Shown: positions 6,701 to 22,233 of the stretch, piece by piece
Position numbering within the stretch: the stretch's first letter is position 1
Layout of the letters: each line of letters starts with the position of its first letter
Source: Roseomonas sp. OT10
GTDB lineage: Bacteria > Pseudomonadota > Alphaproteobacteria > Acetobacterales > Acetobacteraceae
Direction of reading: 5' to 3'
Length of the DNA: 64,000 nt
NCBI RefSeq assembly: GCF_020991085.1
Contig: NZ_CP087719.1
Coordinates: 4,360,001-4,424,000, forward strand
The notes under the pieces: model-generated
Told to the model about the DNA's origin: nothing
The model's database searches: none
The model's input: the letters and a program-made list of their open reading frames with translations, nothing else
Translations under genes and position numbers: made by a program

Positions 6701-6943
6701 CCCGGGGAAAAGGCACTGCCTTTCCCCCGACACCCCCTATCCGCCAGGAGCAGAGCCCCTGGCCCCCCGTTCACGGTGACGTCGTGCGCCGGGGAGCCTG
6801 GCTCCCCGGCGAGTTCGGCCTCGGCACGCGCGGCCCTGTCTTGGCCTGCATGGCCGCCGGTGGCGGACTCCCGCCGGGGTCCGGAGCCCGGCTGTGGCCC
6901 CGGCGGAGGGGGGTAGCCGGGGGAGGCGCCGCCTCCCCCCGGG
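6701..6943 (+). repeat. Structured intergenic repeat, copy A (shortened)
   Basis: This gene-free stretch holds a shortened copy of the element also seen at 10901 and 18035. In order: hairpin 1 (6704-6726, arms GGGGAAAAGGC/GCCTTTCCCC); a CCAGG...CCTGG stem near 6752; hairpin 3 (6787-6811, perfect arms CGCCGGGGAGC/GCTCCCCGGCG); the GTGGCCCCGG block near 6894; and a terminal perfect hairpin (6919-6939, GGGGGAGGC/GCCTCCCCC). Stem changes relative to other copies are compensatory. It lies between two genes on the same strand, so it may attenuate transcription. Confidence 0.75.
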
Positions 6944-6962: not shown

Positions 6963-8474
6963 ATGAGCTGGACGCGGCAGAGGGAGCGCGGCGGCACGGC
7001 GGCGTTGCGGCTGATGCTGTGGATCGTGCGGCGGCTGGGGTTCCGGGTGGCCTATGGGCTGCTCTGGCCGGTGACGCTGTACTTCCTGCTCTCGGCGCCC
7101 GCGGCGCAGCGGGAGGCGTCGCGGCGCTTCCTGGCGCGGGCGCTCGGGCGGGCGCCACGGTTCCGCGACCAGTACCGGCAGTACTTCGCCTTCGCGGCGA
7201 CGGTGCTGGACCGGGTGCTGTTGCTCGGCGGAGGGGAGGCGGGCTACCGGCTGGACCTGGCGGGGGTGGAGCCGCTGGAGGCGCGCATCCTGCGCGGTGA
7301 GGGATGCATCCTGTTCGGCGCGCATCTCGGCAGCTTCGAGGCGCTGCGGGCGGTGGGCGAGCGCGGCTGCCCGGTCGAGGTGGTGGCGCTGATGCACCAG
7401 GACAACGCCGCCGTCGTCAGCGCCTTCTTCGACGCGCTGGGGCCACGGCAGGCGGCCTCGGTGGTGCCGCTCGGGCGGCCGGATGCCATGCTGCGGGCGA
7501 AGGAGTGCCTGGAGCGGGGCGGGCTGGTGACCATCCTCGCGGACCGGGCCCCGCCCGGCACGGCGGAGGCCAAGCTGGCGCGGGTGCCCTTCCTGGGGCA
7601 GCCGGCCGCCTTTCCGCTGGGGCCGCACGTGCTGGCCGCGGTGCTGGATGCGCCTGTCTTCCTGGCCTTCGGACTCTGGCGCGGGCCACGGCGCTACGAG
7701 GCGCGGTTCGAGCCTTTCGCCGACCGGATCGTGCTGCGCCGCGCCACGCGGCAGGCGGACCTGGCCGATTCCGTGGCCCGCTACGCGGCGCGGGTGGAGG
7801 CGGTGGCGCGGGAGAACCCGGAGAACTGGTTCAACTTCTTCGACTTCTGGGAGGAGCTGCCGGCGGAGGCCGTTCCGGCGTCCCGGCCAGCCTGGCTGGC
7901 GCGCCGGGCCGCCGTGCGGGCCGGGTTGGCGGCGGTGCTGCTGGGGACGAGCCTCGCCTGGGCGGAGACGCCGCTGGAGGCGGTGATGCGCTCCCTCGCG
8001 GCGCGGACCTCCGGACAGGCCGAGTTCCTGGAGGAGAAGGCGCTGCCGGAGCTGGCCCTGCCGCTGCCCAGCACGGGCACCCTCTCCTGGCAGGCCCCCG
8101 ACCGGCTGGAGAAACGCACCGAGGACCCGATCCGCGAGCGGCTCACGGTGGAGGGCGACCGGCTCACCTTCGAGCGGCCGGACCAGGGCATCCGGCGTGA
8201 GCTGAGCCTGGACCAGTCGCCGGAGCTGCGGCCGCTGGTGGAAGCGGTGCGCTCGACCCTGGCGGGCGACCTCGCGACGCTGCGGCGCCACTACGAGATC
8301 GGCTTCGAGGGCGATCCGGCGGGGGAATGGCGAATGGTGCTGACCCCGCTCTCCGCCCGGGTGCGGGTCGCGGTGCAGCGGATCGAGGTGACGGGGCGGG
8401 CCGATGCCGTCCTGGGCGTGGTGACCCAGGGCAGCGACGGCACCACCCGGATGCGGATCACGCCCCGCCCGTGA
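6963..8474 (+). CDS. LpxL-type acyltransferase fused to a LolA-like domain
   Basis: A 503-residue protein with two domains that are normally separate genes. Residues 1-305 form an LpxL/HtrB-type lysophospholipid acyltransferase: the catalytic HX4E is H121-LGSF-E126, followed by LADRAPPGTAE (about 195). Residues about 312-503 resemble LolA, the periplasmic lipoprotein carrier, starting with a leftover signal-like stretch VRAGLAAVLLGTSLAWA (about 319-335). In aryl polyene loci both proteins handle attachment and transport of the polyene lipid. The internal hydrophobic segment could place the LolA domain in the periplasm while the acyltransferase stays on the cytoplasmic side. The frame is continuous, but internal initiation at a GTG near 7914 is possible. 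Confidence 0.75.
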   Translation: MSWTRQRERGGTAALRLMLWIVRRLGFRVAYGLLWPVTLYFLLSAPAAQREASRRFLARALGRAPRFRDQYRQYFAFAATVLDRVLLLGGGEAGYRLDLAGVEPLEARILRGEGCILFGAHLGSFEALRAVGERGCPVEVVALMHQDNAAVVSAFFDALGPRQAASVVPLGRPDAMLRAKECLERGGLVTILADRAPPGTAEAKLARVPFLGQPAAFPLGPHVLAAVLDAPVFLAFGLWRGPRRYEARFEPFADRIVLRRATRQADLADSVARYAARVEAVARENPENWFNFFDFWEELPAEAVPASRPAWLARRAAVRAGLAAVLLGTSLAWAETPLEAVMRSLAARTSGQAEFLEEKALPELALPLPSTGTLSWQAPDRLEKRTEDPIRERLTVEGDRLTFERPDQGIRRELSLDQSPELRPLVEAVRSTLAGDLATLRRHYEIGFEGDPAGEWRMVLTPLSARVRVAVQRIEVTGRADAVLGVVTQGSDGTTRMRITPRP

Positions 8475-10864
8475 GCGGCCCGGCCGGCCGCCTTCCGCCC
8501 TCCCTGCGCGGGACGGGCCGGCTGCTGGCCGCTCTGCTGGTGCTCGCCCTGCTGGGGGCGGGAGTGTTCCGCGCGCTGCCGCTGCGGACGGAGATGAGCG
8601 ACTTCCTCCCGCCCGCGGAGACGCCCGCCGCCGCCTTCCTGCTGGAGGAGCTGCGCAGCGGCGCCGCGACCACGCTGCTGCTGGTGGGGATCGAGGGCGC
8701 GCCGGAGGGCGAGCTGGCCCGCCTCTCCCGCGCGCTGGGAGATTCGCTGCGTGCCTCGGGGCGCTTCGCCTTCGTCGGCAACGGCGCGCTGGACCTGTCG
8801 GATGCCGAGCGTGAGCTGGTCTTCCGGCAACGCTACCTGCTCTCCGCCAGCGTCACCCCCGCGCTGTTCGAGGTGCCGGCGCTGCGGGCGAAGCTGACGG
8901 CGCTGCTGGACGGGCTGCGCTCCGCCGCCTCGCCGGTGCTGGCGCGCTTCGGCTTCGCCGATCCGGTGGGGGCCTTCCTGGACCTGCTGCGCGGCTGGCT
9001 GGGGCAGAGCCGGGTGGAACTGCGCCAGGGCGTCTGGTTCGCGGCCAAGGGGGAGAATGGCGAGGGGCCGCCGCGCGCCCTGCTGGTGGCGCGCAGCACG
9101 GCGTCGGGGCTGGACACGGAGGGGCAGCGGCTGGCGGCACAGGCGGTGCGCGACGGCTTCGCCCACGCCGGTCCCGGTTCGGCGCGGCTGCTGCTCAGCG
9201 GGCCGGGGGTCTTCGCGGCCGAGGCGGCGGCGGCGGTGAAGTCGGACGTGGAGATGATCTCCGTCCTGTCGGGCCTGTTGATCGCCGGCTTCCTGTTCTG
9301 GCGCACCCGGTCGCTGCGCATGCTGCTGGTGGTGGCGGTGCCGCTGGCCGCCGGGACGCTGGCGGCGGCGGCGGTCACGGCGGCGGCGTTCGGGCACCTG
9401 CACGGGGCGGCGCTGGGCTTCGGCATGACCATGCTGGGGGTCGCGGTGGACTACCCCATCCTGCTCGTCACCCAGCGCCGGCCGGAGGAGACCCTGCCCG
9501 AGGCGGCGCGGCGCATCTGGCCGACCCTGCGGCTGGCGGCGCTGGCGGCGGCGCTGGGGCTGGTGGCGATGCTGGCCTCCGGCTTCCCCGGCCTGGCGCA
9601 GCTCGGCCTGTTCGGGGCGGTGGGGCTGCTGGTGGGCGTGGCGGTGACGCGCTGGGGCCTGCCCCGGCTGATGCCGGAGGGCGCGCTGGAGACACGGCCG
9701 CTGCCCGGGCCGCTCGCACGCGCCCTGGCCGCGATGCAGGGCCGGCGCTGGGGGTACGGGCTGATCGGCCTCGCGGCGCTTGCTCTGGCCTTGTCCGGCG
9801 GCCCGCGATGGGAGGACGACCTCGCCAACCTCAGCCCCGTGCCACAGGCGCAGCGCGACCTGGACACGGAGCTGCGCGGCCAGCTCGGCGCGCCGGACGT
9901 GCGGGTGCTGGTCGCCCTGCGCGGCGACACGGCCGAGGCGGTGCTGCGGCGTTCGGAGCGCGTGGAGGCGGCGCTGGCGCCACTGGTGGCCGCCGGGACG
10001 CTCGCCGGGCTGGACCTGCCCAGCCGCTACCTGCCGAGTGCCGCGGCGCAATACGCGCGGCAGGCGGCGCTGCCCGACCCGGCAGTGCTGCGCGCCCGGC
10101 TGGCCGAGGCCGGGGCCGGCCTGCCCTTCCGGGCCAACGCCTTCGCGCCCTTCCTCGCCGCCGTCGCGGAGAGCCGGACGCTCGCCCCCCTGACCGCCGG
10201 GGCGCTGGCGGGGGCGCCGCTGCTTTCCGCCCGGCTCGGCCCGCTGCTCGCCCGACGCGGCGAAGGCTGGCAGGGGCTGGCGGTGCCCTCCGGCCTGCGC
10301 GACCCGGCGGCGCTGCGCGCGGCGGTGGAGGGGCTGCGCGACCCCGCCGTGCTGGTGGTGGACATCAAGGGCGAAACCCAGGGAATGATCGCCGCCACGA
10401 CGCAGCGCGCCCTGCTCTGGGTGGCGCTGGGCGGGGCGGGGGTGCTGGGGCTGCTCGCCCTCGGGCTGCGGCGGGCGGGCCGCGCCGGGCCGGTGGAGGC
10501 GCTGCGCGTGGCGGCGCCGATCGCGGGGGCGCTGGTGGTGACGCTGGCCGCGCTCTCCCTGCTGGGCGAGCGGCTGACGCCCTTCCACCTCGCCGCGCTG
10601 CTGCTGCTGGCGGGGGTGGGGATGGACTACGCCCTGTTCCTGAACCAGCCCGCGCCGGGCGAAGCCGCCGACCGCAACCGCGCCGCCGTGCTGACCTGCG
10701 CCGTCACCACCCTGCTGACCTTCGGCCTGCTGGCCTTCTGCGGCACGCCCGTGCTGCGTGGCATCGGGCTGACGGTCGCCATCGGGGTGACGGCCGCCTT
10801 CCTGCTGGCGCTCTACCTGGCGCCGGTGTGGCGCGGGACGCCCTCAGGCCCGGACAGGCCATAG
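8471..10864 (+). CDS. MMPL/RND-type exporter of the aryl polyene locus
   Basis: A 797-residue RND-superfamily (MMPL) transporter. The N-terminal membrane segment is LLAALLVLALLGAGVF. Two large periplasmic loops follow, each with a block of about five membrane segments (residues about 255-400 and 640-790). The conserved MMPL pattern GMTMLGVAVDYPILLVTQ appears near 316, with a matching GVGMDYALFLNQ near 717. MMPL proteins export lipids using the proton gradient, and one is standard in aryl polyene loci. The GTG start at 8471 overlaps the previous stop (GTGA), so the genes are coupled. It ends the + strand run and is followed by structured repeat B. Confidence 0.85.
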   Translation: MSGPAGRLPPSLRGTGRLLAALLVLALLGAGVFRALPLRTEMSDFLPPAETPAAAFLLEELRSGAATTLLLVGIEGAPEGELARLSRALGDSLRASGRFAFVGNGALDLSDAERELVFRQRYLLSASVTPALFEVPALRAKLTALLDGLRSAASPVLARFGFADPVGAFLDLLRGWLGQSRVELRQGVWFAAKGENGEGPPRALLVARSTASGLDTEGQRLAAQAVRDGFAHAGPGSARLLLSGPGVFAAEAAAAVKSDVEMISVLSGLLIAGFLFWRTRSLRMLLVVAVPLAAGTLAAAAVTAAAFGHLHGAALGFGMTMLGVAVDYPILLVTQRRPEETLPEAARRIWPTLRLAALAAALGLVAMLASGFPGLAQLGLFGAVGLLVGVAVTRWGLPRLMPEGALETRPLPGPLARALAAMQGRRWGYGLIGLAALALALSGGPRWEDDLANLSPVPQAQRDLDTELRGQLGAPDVRVLVALRGDTAEAVLRRSERVEAALAPLVAAGTLAGLDLPSRYLPSAAAQYARQAALPDPAVLRARLAEAGAGLPFRANAFAPFLAAVAESRTLAPLTAGALAGAPLLSARLGPLLARRGEGWQGLAVPSGLRDPAALRAAVEGLRDPAVLVVDIKGETQGMIAATTQRALLWVALGGAGVLGLLALGLRRAGRAGPVEALRVAAPIAGALVVTLAALSLLGERLTPFHLAALLLLAGVGMDYALFLNQPAPGEAADRNRAAVLTCAVTTLLTFGLLAFCGTPVLRGIGLTVAIGVTAAFLLALYLAPVWRGTPSGPDRP

Positions 10865-10900: not shown

Positions 10901-11252
10901 CCCGGGGGCAAGGCGCTGCCTCGCCCCCGATACCCCCACTCCGCCAGGACCCTGCGGGCCCTGGACCCGAAGGGCGCTGCCGCGGGACAGCCGGACACGG
11001 GGTCGAGGCGCCGAGGAGCCATGCTCCTCCGCGGGTACGGCCTCCACACTCGCTGACGCCTATGACGCTTTTCAGGGTCCCGCCTGTCCGCGCTCCGTCA
11101 GGGTTCAGCCCGCAGGCTGACGCCTACTGCGCAGCACCAGACTCCCAGCGGGGTCCGGGGCCCGCTTGTGGCCCCGGCAGGGGAGGGTCTGGGACGGGGA
11201 TCGACGCACGGCGTCGATGCCGCAGGCCGGCGTCCCCTCCCGGTCCGACGCC
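10901..11252 (+). repeat. Structured intergenic repeat, copy B
   Basis: A long hairpin-rich element filling most of the 505-base gap between two converging genes. Hairpin 1 is at 10904-10928 (GGGGGCAAGGC/GCCTCGCCCCC), then a CCAGG...CCCTGG stem, hairpin 3 at 11009-11033 (one mismatch), a CGTCAG/CTGACG stem near 11096-11123, and the CCGGGGCC/GGCCCCGG stem near 11156. The terminal part has gained an inner ATCGACG/CGTCGAT hairpin near 11199-11217. It closely resembles copy C. Its place between converging 3' ends fits bidirectional termination. I see no gene in 10865-11369. Confidence 0.85.
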
Positions 11253-11369: not shown

Positions 11370-12491
11370 TCAGGCGGCGGGGAGCAGGCGGCGCGGGTCG
11401 AACGCCTCCGCCTCGCCGCGCATCCAGCGCAGTTCCGCCTCGCCGCCTTCCAGCGCCGCCGCCAGCCCCTCGCCCAGCAGCGCCGCAAACTTGAAGGCAT
11501 GGCCGGCGCAGCCGGTGATCGCCACCACCCGGCCGCGGCGCGCGGCGGTGAAGGTCTCGTCCGCCCGGCCGGCATAGACGCAGACCCGCGCGCCCGTCAG
11601 GGCATAGTCCTCGAACAGGGCCAGCCGGCTACGCCAGGCGTCCAGCACCATCTCCGCCTCGCCCGGCTCGGGGCTGCGGCGCTGGTCGGGCTCGCCGGGG
11701 CGGTTCAGGGCGCCGACGCCGAACTTCAGCCCGCGCCCCTGGCCGGGCGGGGCGCAGAACAGCCCGCGCGGCCCGCCCATGTCGAGCAGGATGGGCGTCG
11801 CCGCCCAGGCCTCCGCCAGTTCCGGCGGCGGGGCGGCATAGACCACCACCTGGCGCAGCGGGGTCTGGCCGTCGCCGGTCCAGGGCAGCAGGCGTGGCGT
11901 CCAGGCCCCGGCGGCGACCAGCACCGCATCGAAGCGGAATGCCGTACCGCCGGCGCGCAGGCTGCCGTCCTCGCCCACCGCCTCGGCGGGGGTGTCGGGC
12001 CGCAGCACGGCCCCCGCCTCGGCCGCGAGGCGGGCGAAGCCGGCGGTGATGGAATCGGCGAAGAGCACCCCGCCCGGCTGCGTCCAGAGGCCCCAGCGGG
12101 CGTCCTCCACGCGCAGGACGGGGAAGCGTTCCGCCACCTGCGCCGGCGTCAGCACGGCATGCGGCAGGCCGAGCCGGGCGAGCGAGGCGCGGGAGCGTTC
12201 CGTCCAGTCGCCGTCATTCGTGTGCAGGGCGAGGCAGCCGCGCTCATCGTAGAGGCGCTCGCCCAGCGCGTCCCACAGCCGCTCCCAGGACTCCATGGCG
12301 GGCGCCATCAGCCGGGCGTAGCCGTCCTGGCTGCCATAGGGCACGCGGCAGAGCCGGTGCTGGTCCATGCTGGCGGCGAGCGGGTTGGGGATCGGCCCGG
12401 CCTCGAACACCTCCACCGCATGGCCGCGGCGGGCGGCGTTCCAGGCGGCGGCGAGGCCGACCGCGCCCGCCCCGACGATGCCGACCCTCAT
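11370..12491 (-). CDS. FAD-dependent oxidoreductase (DAO/sarcosine-oxidase type)
   Basis: About 373 residues beginning with the dinucleotide-binding motif VGIVGAGAVGLAAAWNAARRGH and ending with ITGCAGHAFKFAALLGEG, a pattern of monomeric sarcosine oxidase and N-methyl amino-acid oxidases, where the cysteine can hold FAD covalently. It would oxidise a secondary or N-methylated amine and pass electrons to oxygen or another acceptor; the substrate is not determinable. A TTG at 12506 overlaps the upstream stop, but the ATG at 12491 has a better purine-rich leader. It is translated after the peptide-type binding protein gene, so the two probably handle the same amine-containing compound. Confidence 0.8.
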   Translation of the reverse strand: MRVGIVGAGAVGLAAAWNAARRGHAVEVFEAGPIPNPLAASMDQHRLCRVPYGSQDGYARLMAPAMESWERLWDALGERLYDERGCLALHTNDGDWTERSRASLARLGLPHAVLTPAQVAERFPVLRVEDARWGLWTQPGGVLFADSITAGFARLAAEAGAVLRPDTPAEAVGEDGSLRAGGTAFRFDAVLVAAGAWTPRLLPWTGDGQTPLRQVVVYAAPPPELAEAWAATPILLDMGGPRGLFCAPPGQGRGLKFGVGALNRPGEPDQRRSPEPGEAEMVLDAWRSRLALFEDYALTGARVCVYAGRADETFTAARRGRVVAITGCAGHAFKFAALLGEGLAAALEGGEAELRWMRGEAEAFDPRRLLPAA

Positions 12492-17422: not shown

Positions 17423-17751
17423 AGGCGCCGCCACCCTTCCAACCGGACCCCACGCGGCTCTACGAGGTTGGCCGCGGTGGCGTGGCCTATACCGATCCTG
17501 GGCGAGACCCGGTCGGGGTGGAGGCGCGTCGGCGGCGCGCCCTGCGTTGGTGGTGGGTGGCTCTGCTGCTGAACCTGGCGGCGGCCGGGATCGCGGGGCT
17601 GGGCTTCGTGCTGTTGCCGCGGACAGCCTCCGCCTGGCTGGGGCTGCTGCCGCTGGCCACCGCGCCACTGGTGGTGCTGGCACCGCTGCTGGGCCATGGC
17701 CGGCGGCGCCGGACACGGCACCGGAGCCGGCCCCGGGGGTTTTCCCGGTAG
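17419..17751 (+). CDS. Putative small membrane protein with unclear start
   Basis: An open frame directly after the previous gene. The product, from about FQPDPTRLYEVGRGGVAY onward, has a basic stretch ARRRRALR followed by two hydrophobic segments (WWWVALLLNLAAAGIAGLGFVLL and LLPLATAPLVVLAPLLG) and a basic tail, a plausible membrane protein. No ATG is available. A CTG at 17419 would overlap the upstream stop in the same style as the ATGA junctions nearby, and a GTG at 17482 is the first common start. It has no recognised homologue and could be non-coding. Confidence 0.4.
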   Translation: MKAPPPFQPDPTRLYEVGRGGVAYTDPGRDPVGVEARRRRALRWWWVALLLNLAAAGIAGLGFVLLPRTASAWLGLLPLATAPLVVLAPLLGHGRRRRTRHRSRPRGFSR

Positions 17752-18034
17752 GACCTCCGCCAGGGCCTGGAAGTCCTGCGCGGCCGCCTTCCGGGCCCGG
17801 TTCCGGGTGCTGCAGCAGGGCGGGCGCGTGGTGATCGCGGAGGGCAACCACGCGCGCCCCTCCGGCTTGCCTGCTCGAACGGGCTGAACCGGCTCCAGGG
17901 CACCCCCGGCCCGGCGATCGACTGGGCGGCGCATGAGGCGATCCAGCGTCAGGTGTACGTCCGCTGCGGTCCGCCCCGCTCCGCATGATACGGGCCGCTC
18001 GATGCCCTGATCCGTGCTGGCGTGGCGCCCGTGG
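17752..18034 (+). other. Intergenic stretch before repeat C; nothing convincing
   Basis: This part of the gap between 17751 and 18384 contains no supported gene. A short frame ending at the TGA near 17988 reads PGPAIDWAAHEAIQRQVY, which looks protein-like. It has no start and no family I recognise, so it may be a decayed gene end. Confidence 0.3.
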
Positions 18035-18357
18035 CCCGGGGGCAAGGCTCTGCCTCGCCCCCGTACCCCCACTCCGCCAGGACCCTGCGGGCCCTGGACC
18101 CGAAGGGCGCTGCCGCGCGGATGATTGCGACGGGGTCGAGGCGCCGAGGAGCCATGCTCCTCGGCGGGTACGGCTACCGCACTCGCGGACGCCTACAACT
18201 CTTTTCTGGAGTCCCGCCTGTCCACGCTCCGTCAGGGTTTAGCCCGGAGGCTGACGCCCACCGGAAGCGCCAGACTCCCAGCGGGGACCGGGGCCCGCTT
18301 GTGGCCCCGGCAGGGGAGGGTCTGGGAGGGGACAGCGTCCCCTCCCGGTCCGCCGCC
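18035..18357 (+). repeat. Structured intergenic repeat, copy C (most regular)
   Basis: This copy has the cleanest stems. Hairpin 1 is at 18038-18062 (GGGGGCAAGGC/GCCTCGCCCCC), then a CCAGG...CCCTGG stem. Hairpin 3 is at 18142-18166, a perfect 11-bp stem CGCCGAGGAGC/GCTCCTCGGCG around CAT. A CGTCAG/CTGACG stem follows near 18230-18256, then CCGGGGCC/GGCCCCGG at 18288-18310 and a terminal perfect 10-bp hairpin at 18324-18346 (GGGAGGGGAC/GTCCCCTCCC). It sits between converging genes ending at 17751 and 18385. Confidence 0.88.
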
Positions 18358-18384
18358 CCTTCGGCGCCCTGACGGTCCCGACCG

Positions 18385-18819
18385 TCAGCGGCCGTCGGCG
18401 CGGGCGGCGATCTCGCGGAACCGCCGGCGCACCACCTCGGGCAGGCCCTCCGGGATGGCTGCCGCCGAGGCCAGGGCATCGCCCACCTGGATCAGCATCA
18501 CCATTCCCATGGCATAGTGCGGGATGCACCTGATGCCGTAGAAGCCCGGCTCGGTGAAGGCGACCTCGATCTCCTCGTTGATCTGGCCCTTGAAGGGCCG
18601 TGCCCCGGCCGGCAGCATCTCGGGCATCGAGGCGGCGTTGTGCGTCACGTGGGTGGCGCGGAACCGCACCCGGTCGCCGGGCGCAAGGCGCAGGTAGTCC
18701 GGCTCGTACACCATCCCGCCGGTTTCATTGCGGTTCAGCATCCGCACCTCGTACAGCTCGGCCAGGGCGGGCCCGGCGGTGGCGGCAAGCAGCAGGACGG
18801 CCGGCAGAAGCGGGCGCAT
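18385..18819 (-). CDS. Pseudoazurin (blue copper protein)
   Basis: A 144-residue cupredoxin with a signal peptide ending ATAGPALA-E (residue 20). The copper ligands are H60, C98, H101 and M106; subtracting the 20-residue signal gives 40, 78, 81 and 86, exactly the positions known for mature pseudoazurin. The core LRLAPGDRVRFRATHVTHNA and YGIRCIPHYAMGM are typical. It carries electrons in the periplasm, classically to nitrite reductase or cytochrome c peroxidase. It begins 11 bases after the B12-type importer ATPase on the same strand, so it probably shares the riboswitch-controlled transcript, an unexpected partner. Confidence 0.88.
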   Translation of the reverse strand: MRPLLPAVLLLAATAGPALAELYEVRMLNRNETGGMVYEPDYLRLAPGDRVRFRATHVTHNAASMPEMLPAGARPFKGQINEEIEVAFTEPGFYGIRCIPHYAMGMVMLIQVGDALASAAAIPEGLPEVVRRRFREIAARADGR

Positions 18820-21669: not shown

Positions 21670-21823
21670 GGGGTCTGTCTCCGGAGGGGCTGCCGGAGGA
21701 TCGGATAGGGGACGAAGGCGCGGCCCACCCCGCCACACGGGCGGGACGCCGCAGCTGCGCGCGTCGCGAACGGACCATCAGCACCCCTCCCCCGGACACC
21801 CCGCCGGCTGGTTCACGCAAGCA

Positions 21824-22012
21824 TGCCGGCAGGTCTCCTGACTGGCGGGTCAGCGCCCGATCCGACCTTCCCAGGGGACGGGCCCCCAGTGGTGTGCGCG
21901 GATCAGGCTCGCCGCCTACAGTTGCGGGGGCAGTCCCGGTTCACGTCCCGCGCGTCCTGCGACGCCCGGATCGTGGCGGGTTCCCTATTAATCCCTTTCG
22001 GAAACCGACGGG
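21824..22012 (-). promoter_or_regulatory. Cobalamin riboswitch
   Basis: Read on the minus strand, the leader holds the cobalamin-riboswitch core blocks in order: AATAGGGAA, GGGACTGCCCCCGCAACTGT, GGCGGCGAG, CCACTGG, CTGGGAAGG, and CCAGTCAGGAGACCTGCC near the 3' end (21824-21845). This places adenosylcobalamin-responsive control about 155 bases before the importer binding-protein gene. A GC-rich hairpin at 21729-21745 (CCCGCC/GGCGGG) may belong to the expression platform. By family knowledge, high cobalamin would turn expression off. The block order makes the call strong even though the exact 5' boundary is approximate. Confidence 0.93.
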
Positions 22013-22233
22013 ATCGCGCTTAGCGGATGGGGCGCGCGGCGGCAAGCTGGCCCGGCATCGCCCCGTGGGGCCACGCCACCGCCTCCATGCGGGAATCGAC
22101 GCATCCGCGGCCTTTCCCATTGCCCTGCGGCCGCCGCTTCGCTGGACTTCCCCCGGCGGGTGCGGCACGGCCGCCCCGGAACACAGACCGACCGGAGCGG
22201 TGCGCCGCGGCCGGCGCAGGAGGAAGAGCGTCC

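Follow-up and report, generated by a model that had tools for sequence, protein, structure and literature searches.

Within the 64,000-nucleotide stretch of Roseomonas sp. OT10 DNA analysed here (hereafter the window), two long elements, copies B and C (Table 1), share 90% identity over 302 bp, and our gene caller finds no gene inside either, bearing out their preliminary description as closely similar and gene-free. That description also placed both between converging genes. This holds for copy B, whose neighbours (8471-10864 on the + strand and 11370-12491 on the − strand) converge; for copy C it clearly holds only on the right, where a converging gene for a plastocyanin/azurin-type copper protein (18385-18819, − strand) follows, while the left flank (17423-17988) contains no accepted gene. 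By eye, this left flank resembles a broken + strand gene ending near the element's TGA. Gene calls throughout come from our own, unvalidated codon-usage caller. The perfect 11-bp and 10-bp stems (H4 and H8) that had been read in copy C are present, and the DNA is indeed unusually ordered, as on both strands (z −4.0 and −4.2) none of 100 dinucleotide shuffles reaches the folding energy of positions 18020-18380. Elsewhere in the window, a cobalamin riboswitch lies at 21811-22024 on the − strand (96.5 bits).

Table 1. Positions of the elements and of their parts in the window.
Feature	Position	Strand	Basis or remark
Left target triplet of copy C, TGA	17986..17988		sequence; 3-bp duplication register, 63 copies
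Left terminal inverted repeat of copy C, TACGGGCCGCTCGATG (consensus TACGGACGGCGGGATG)	17989..18004	+	sequence, alignment of copies
Hairpin H1, copy C	18037..18063	+	sequence and alignments
Conserved linker TACCCCCACTCCGCC	18064..18078	+	ACCCCCACTCCGCC, mean conservation 0.979 in 41 copies
Hairpin H2 (CCAGGACCCTGCGGGCCCTGG), module common to other Acetobacteraceae	18077..18097	+	pattern searches, covariation
Hairpin H4, CAT loop on a perfect 11-bp stem (hairpin 3 of the preliminary description)	18142..18166	+	sequence, covariation, loop counts
Hairpin H5 (CGTCAG...CTGACG)	18230..18256	+	read by eye
Hairpin H6 (CCGGGGCC...GGCCCCGG)	18288..18310	+	pattern search, alignment, covariation
Hairpin H8, perfect 10-bp stem (terminal stem of the preliminary description)	18324..18346	+	sequence, folding
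Copy C core, limits of the preliminary description	18035..18357	+	right terminal repeat beyond the core not recognisable
Copy B core, subfamily with extra palindrome ATCGACGC...GCGTCGAT inside H8	10901..11252	+	sequence, alignments
Diverged partial relative between two + strand genes	6701..6914		two 49-bp stretches, 82% identity to two core parts

The two copies belong to a family of gene-free elements of about 415 bp, each a string of at least six hairpins, which occupies more than 200 chromosomal sites in this 5.69-Mb genome of three contigs. A pattern for hairpin H6 matched the genome 226 times (112 on the + strand and 114 on the − strand) and its reversed control not once, so the large intergenic family suspected from two copies is borne out. 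Forty of 347 first-look candidates were scored, giving at least 40 near-full copies at 89-100% identity. Twenty evenly spaced 20-kb chromosome stretches (400 kb) contained 18 clusters, of which 15 span 200 bp or more and three are short (46-116 bp), and from these a chromosomal total of 200-240 copies is extrapolated. We collected 130 unique copies, drawn mostly from lists in which perfect H6 matches came first, and 122 of these have a full core. The core lengths of 76 copies are spread evenly over the three classes modulo 3 (27, 28 and 21), showing that no reading frame is kept. The element's G+C content (74%) is that of the window. The two plasmid contigs (358 kb) carry no copy of this type, where about 15 would be expected from the 226 chromosomal matches; one of them, C2, holds two relatives at 78% identity. 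The other, C3, matches Roseomonas plasmids at 98-99% over 84-85% of 12 kb, which points to that genus, although a plasmid may move between hosts. Searches of plasmid and phage collections returned nothing resembling copy B at E 1e-5. Among 100 listed perfect H6 sites, those at 0.2-1.0 and 3.5-4.25 Mb of the chromosome are dense, and those at 1.5-2.5 Mb and above 4.5 Mb sparse. A literature search, with most subscription journals outside its coverage, found this family described in none of the titles and abstract openings listed.

Alignment of 30 copies with their flanks revealed that the core limits first proposed were too short: conservation continues past them to an imperfect 16-bp terminal inverted repeat, TACGGACGGCGGGATG ... 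CATCCCGCCGTCSGTA, flanked by TGA or TCA, so that copy C starts at 17989, immediately after the TGA at 17986-17988. Both ends lie within 4 mismatches of the 16-bp repeats in 63 of the 122 full-core copies, and 55 of these 63 measure 402-424 bp. The bordering triplets are identical in 40 of the 63 (10,000 shuffles gave a mean of 21.5 and a maximum of 34), the match appears only at length 3 and in this register, and all 40 matching triplets are TGA or TCA. Because a left TGA pairs with a right TGA rather than with TCA, the triplet is a duplication that lies outside the inverted repeat. Oriented on TGA, the empty-site consensus reads C-TGA-G, with C at 85% and G at 62% of the 40 sites. In the other 59 full-core copies at least one end exceeds 4 mismatches, and the triplets are unequal in 23 of the 63. 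In the relatives G003, G004 and G012 no target duplication was found (at best 4 of 38 elements at any of 256 offset pairs), and mobility is therefore supported for the OT10 genome only. An empty orthologous site was not found with the one neighbouring protein tried, whose counterparts in relatives are 66-70% identical and too distant.

The target duplication gives direct evidence for the mobile repeat that had been among the first guesses. Because terminal inverted repeats and a 3-bp duplication occur together, we assign the element to the MITE-type non-autonomous DNA transposons, probably moved in trans by an IS5-family DDE transposase with the IS1031 target rule. Prokaryotic MITEs, as described in PMC10969869, are likewise short, gene-free, intergenic, high-copy elements with terminal inverted repeats, target duplications and strong folding; they are there characterised as AT-rich, in contrast to the G+C-rich element described here, which also differs in being a string of hairpins, in having a core conserved above its terminal repeats and in that no IS with matching ends was found. 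In the account of PMC12016507, the IS1031 group, a subgroup of the IS5 family, prefers TNA and yields a 3-bp repeat, and the element shares this TNA duplication, which in this genome falls mostly within C-TNA-G.

An IS with a similar target rule is resident in the genome. Transposase domain searches covered PF01609 and PF01797, and DDE_Tnp_1 (PF01609) occurs at 34 places, with ends examined for five groups comprising 24 places. The largest group is an IS1031-like IS with 12 copies, in all of which TNA is duplicated; the triplet is preceded by C in 10 and followed by G in 9. The element's target rule resembles that of this IS; its terminal repeats do not. The IS ends begin GAGCCTGATCC and those of the element TACGGACGG, and the IS, unlike the element, carries a transposase. 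Viewed as an IS1031-group derivative, the element thus shows the TNA duplication (TSA, at C-TSA-G) and lacks IS-like terminal repeats, the resident IS being the sole comparison. Nine IS copies lie on the 286-kb contig C2 and three on the chromosome, a distribution opposite to that of the element. No autonomous partner with the element's ends was found among the five IS groups (24 of the 34 PF01609 places), and the best 30 of 214 terminal-repeat matches all flank a core, with no transposase beside them.

Other known repeat families were compared with the element. REP/BIME palindromes spread by a RAYT transposase share with it an extragenic location near gene ends (PMC3733652), the 21-bp palindrome H2 occurs at high copy, and in relatives an inverted related block stands opposite. 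A REP unit is described as a 20-40 bp palindrome with a GTAG or CGTC head (PMC3733652), a size that H2 alone would fit, and the whole element of about 415 bp is a much larger unit. The element also has a target duplication, Y1 transposase domains (PF01797) have no match in the genome (5 of 14 control genomes were positive), and by the account in PMC3733652 CGTC repeats are missing in Acetobacteraceae. We regard a RAYT-driven origin as very improbable, and the mismatch to REP noted at the outset stands in the sense that the family is not RAYT-type as far as tested; the accompanying mismatch to ERIC was compared by size alone, which differs from the 127-bp enterobacterial consensus. The Caulobacter CIR is also an alphaproteobacterial intergenic repeat, with two hairpin arms, a linker and GANTC (PMC2229807). 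Membership was rejected, since CIR is given there as about 110 bp with a conserved GANTC, and here the size differs and GANTC is nearly absent from the relatives' elements. Within OT10, GANTC is present in 112 of 122 copies (in copy C at window positions 18209 and 18273), at a density of 4.4 per kb; the window has 0.92 per kb, and 44 elements from the relatives have 0.15.

The placement of the copies is uneven. Among the 122 full-core copies, 96 lie in convergent gaps, 26 in same-direction gaps and none in a divergent gap or within a called gene. As the window was not chosen blindly, the headline counts were taken from the 20 evenly spaced stretches alone, in which 11 of 42 convergent gaps are occupied compared with 4 of 177 same-direction (Fisher p 3e-6) and 0 of 45 divergent gaps (p 2e-4); with the window added, these become 13 of 47, 5 of 210 and 0 of 51. 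The duplicated triplet coincides exactly with a neighbour's stop codon in 47 of 63 copies. This abutment largely follows from the target rule: 34 of 38 clean copies sit at a stop, compared with an expectation of 26.2 when all TSA sites of the gap have the same chance (z 3.5) and of 30.9 when sites are also weighted for the flanking C and G (z 1.8), the latter being a lenient expectation as its weights derive from the same 40 sites. With 34 observed and 30.9 expected, a special mechanism of stop-codon targeting was judged unneeded.

The excess in convergent gaps fits either tolerance or use of the element, and if it is used, a two-way transcription barrier between converging genes would be our best guess. 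Taken further, the copies could be a family of two-way terminators or insulators that selection keeps at converging gene ends, with mobility incidental. The gap counts given above agree with such a role, as do the conservation of the hairpins above terminal repeats and spacers, the unbiased orientation (112 versus 114), the quasi-symmetry of the element in relatives and the additional hairpins that, by eye, mostly accompany H2 at loci of other Acetobacteraceae genera. However, avoidance of promoters and operons alone would give equal placement, 31 of the 42 sampled convergent gaps are empty, and no hairpin followed by a T tract was found in the copy B or copy C region (0 each). The two-way termination first suggested for these copies is thus conjectural. 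We consider this family-wide role a real possibility, if a somewhat doubtful one.

The family extends beyond OT10. Matches were found in 13 of 40 genomes searched, namely its own, 11 of 14 others of the genus and one of another genus, and G003, G004 and G012 carry full-length elements of about 70% identity with compensated stems; in G012, 40 of 199 first-look candidates were scored and all 40 matched. In the relatives the H1-linker-H2 block returns in inverted form at the opposite end, making the element quasi-symmetric, and in 36 of their elements a long-range stem, TTCGTTGGC/GCCAACGAA, is 84% paired, whereas slid registers reach no more than 60%. Of 397 Acetobacteraceae genomes, 29 carry the H2 module with compensated stems, and they represent 7 of 102 genera (control zero). 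Inspection by eye of 15 loci from other Acetobacteraceae genera found additional hairpins next to H2 in most, though not in L209. Single hairpins are at places swapped or extended as whole palindromes with their linkers kept, as in H1 of L322, H6 of L316 and the G012 copies with CATCATGGTCATGG.

Covariation is commonly regarded as strong evidence of functional RNA. We examined it in an alignment of 56 elements, comprising 20 of the 122 OT10 copies (taken from a diverse set of 35) and, of the copies extracted from relatives, 21 of 30 from G012, 8 of 8 from G004 and 7 of 7 from G003; left out were L173 and the G012 copies L179, L183, L185, L192, L194, L195, L196 and L198, several of which eight carry insertions or are cut short. 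Across the four genomes, 36 pairs in four hairpins are 97.9% paired, and two-sided changes occur at 9 pairs in 82 cells, compared with 29 in shuffles and 1-3 when slid. These are cells and not events, for 40 of the 82 represent one difference at two adjacent H4 pairs between OT10 and its relatives, and a further 17 fall at one H1 pair, which is unpaired in 17 other cells. One-sided changes amount to 29 cells, 19 of them at a single loop-closing pair. The absence of further copies or of covariation, which the preliminary description had named as speaking against a new family, is thus not what we found: copies are many and their stems covary.

A structured non-coding RNA read from one strand, another of the initial guesses, would account for the strong folding, the covariation across four genomes and the long-range stem in the relatives. 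The OT10 copies point the other way. Over the four hairpins in all 122 copies (4,636 cells) there are 6 two-sided, 6 G-U, 10 A-C and 5 other changes, so that G-U and A-C are similarly rare and no strand preference is seen, and the copies lie in both orientations (112 + and 114 −). An excess of G-U over the whole structure (468 versus 42) was discarded, as it consists mostly of near-invariant G-U pairs chosen by the folding program on that strand. The element had no Rfam match in the window at gathering score (the cobalamin riboswitch was the sole match), four loci compared with Rfam at E up to 1 gave one chance-level match, and a scan limited to sigma-70 type promoters found no promoter-like site in either region. 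Together these results make an RNA role quite unlikely.

If not RNA function, then processes acting on the DNA may explain why the hairpins stay paired. As the collected copies favour perfect H6 matches, conservation was measured in 41 copies chosen by other features (30 loci picked by terminal repeat plus 17 picked by core similarity from the stretches and the window, minus duplicates). In these, hairpins and linker are 94-98% conserved versus 76-85% for the terminal repeats and 85% for the spacers. This pattern may reflect constraint or conversion among copies, plus template switching. Between copies, cores are 87.6% and ends 72% alike, the 12 closest core pairs (93-96%) have ends merely 63-84% alike, and copy C differs at its ends from its 98% partner. 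Near-identical cores with dissimilar ends fit core conversion better than recent transposition.

The H4 loop bears on template switching. Loops were counted in 161 of 167 entries (six, L173 among them, gave none): the loop is CAT in 82 copies and ATG in 26, where 4.8 ATG would be expected under independent columns, a crude model whose expectation the loop TTG also exceeds. Both orientations are represented in 8 of the 13 loop classes; TTG (19 copies) has no CAA counterpart. The occurrence of one loop in both orientations suggests template switching, which in PMC8794818 is treated as a means of hairpin maintenance in RNA genes and is here proposed for a mobile DNA element; compensated stems are common to both cases, and loop inversion would, on the present reading, be a further shared feature. 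The compensated stems could instead have arisen through recombination among copies and swaps of whole hairpins, with no template switching at all. Whole-palindrome stem replacements such as those in L322 (H1) and L316 (H6) agree with this, as do cores that are more alike than ends, and within OT10 two-sided changes are not in excess, which tells against repair as the main force here. By itself, however, recombination leaves the both-orientation loop in several genomes unexplained, and we hold this account to be plausible without favouring it.

A second family in the same chromosome was noticed along the way. Its members are about 270 bp long and nearly palindromic (L413, L415, L416, L418 and L419, read by eye; contig C1 of G000, the OT10 genome, at 108988, 412559, 481838, 1008497 and 3845982), each with a module CCCGCCAGGAGCAGAGCCCCTGGACCCC and its more or less exact inverse opposite. 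The long central hairpin, judged by eye, varies between copies and stays palindromic in most, and several copies stand just upstream of an ATG that resembles the next gene's start. Such variable yet palindromic hairpins match what template switching would produce. A stricter pattern matched the OT10 genome alone among 289 of the class, at 8 sites which, so far as they were read, are members of the second family; as this pattern cannot match the main family's TCCGCC, it is uninformative on the main family outside Acetobacteraceae.

Returning to the main family, we hold it more likely than not that the element is a gene-free MITE of about 415 bp that inserts in C-TSA-G with duplication of the 3-bp TSA. 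It would have been mobilised in trans by an IS5-family DDE transposase with the IS1031 target rule (TNA), and its autonomous partner may be lost or unfound. Surviving insertions would be those in gaps without read-through, so that convergent gaps would fill while operon and promoter gaps would stay clean. Where the triplet doubles as a stop codon, duplication would recreate the stop and so leave the gene undamaged. Once an element is in place, its inner hairpins would stay nearly intact as the outer repeats decay, presumably through conversion among copies and template switching between hairpin arms. Selection may also contribute, if converging genes benefit from a barrier that blocks transcription or supercoiling from both sides. 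The most far-reaching form of this proposal is a self-correcting palindrome array, in which template switching during replication keeps the hairpins perfect and flips their loops and which serves, in about a quarter of the sampled convergent gaps, as a two-way barrier; we put it forward as a speculation that is unlikely to hold in full.

The family would illustrate a route by which an element can reach more than 200 copies with probably little harm, through a target triplet that often doubles as a stop codon and insertion in convergent gaps. Its hundreds of copies, together with those of the relatives, constitute a natural experiment: compensated stems, whole-hairpin swaps and loop inversions can be followed from one copy to the next, and such tracing would make the shares of template switching, conversion and selection measurable. 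If the self-correcting array is true, palindrome arrays subject to template switching yield covariation without RNA function.
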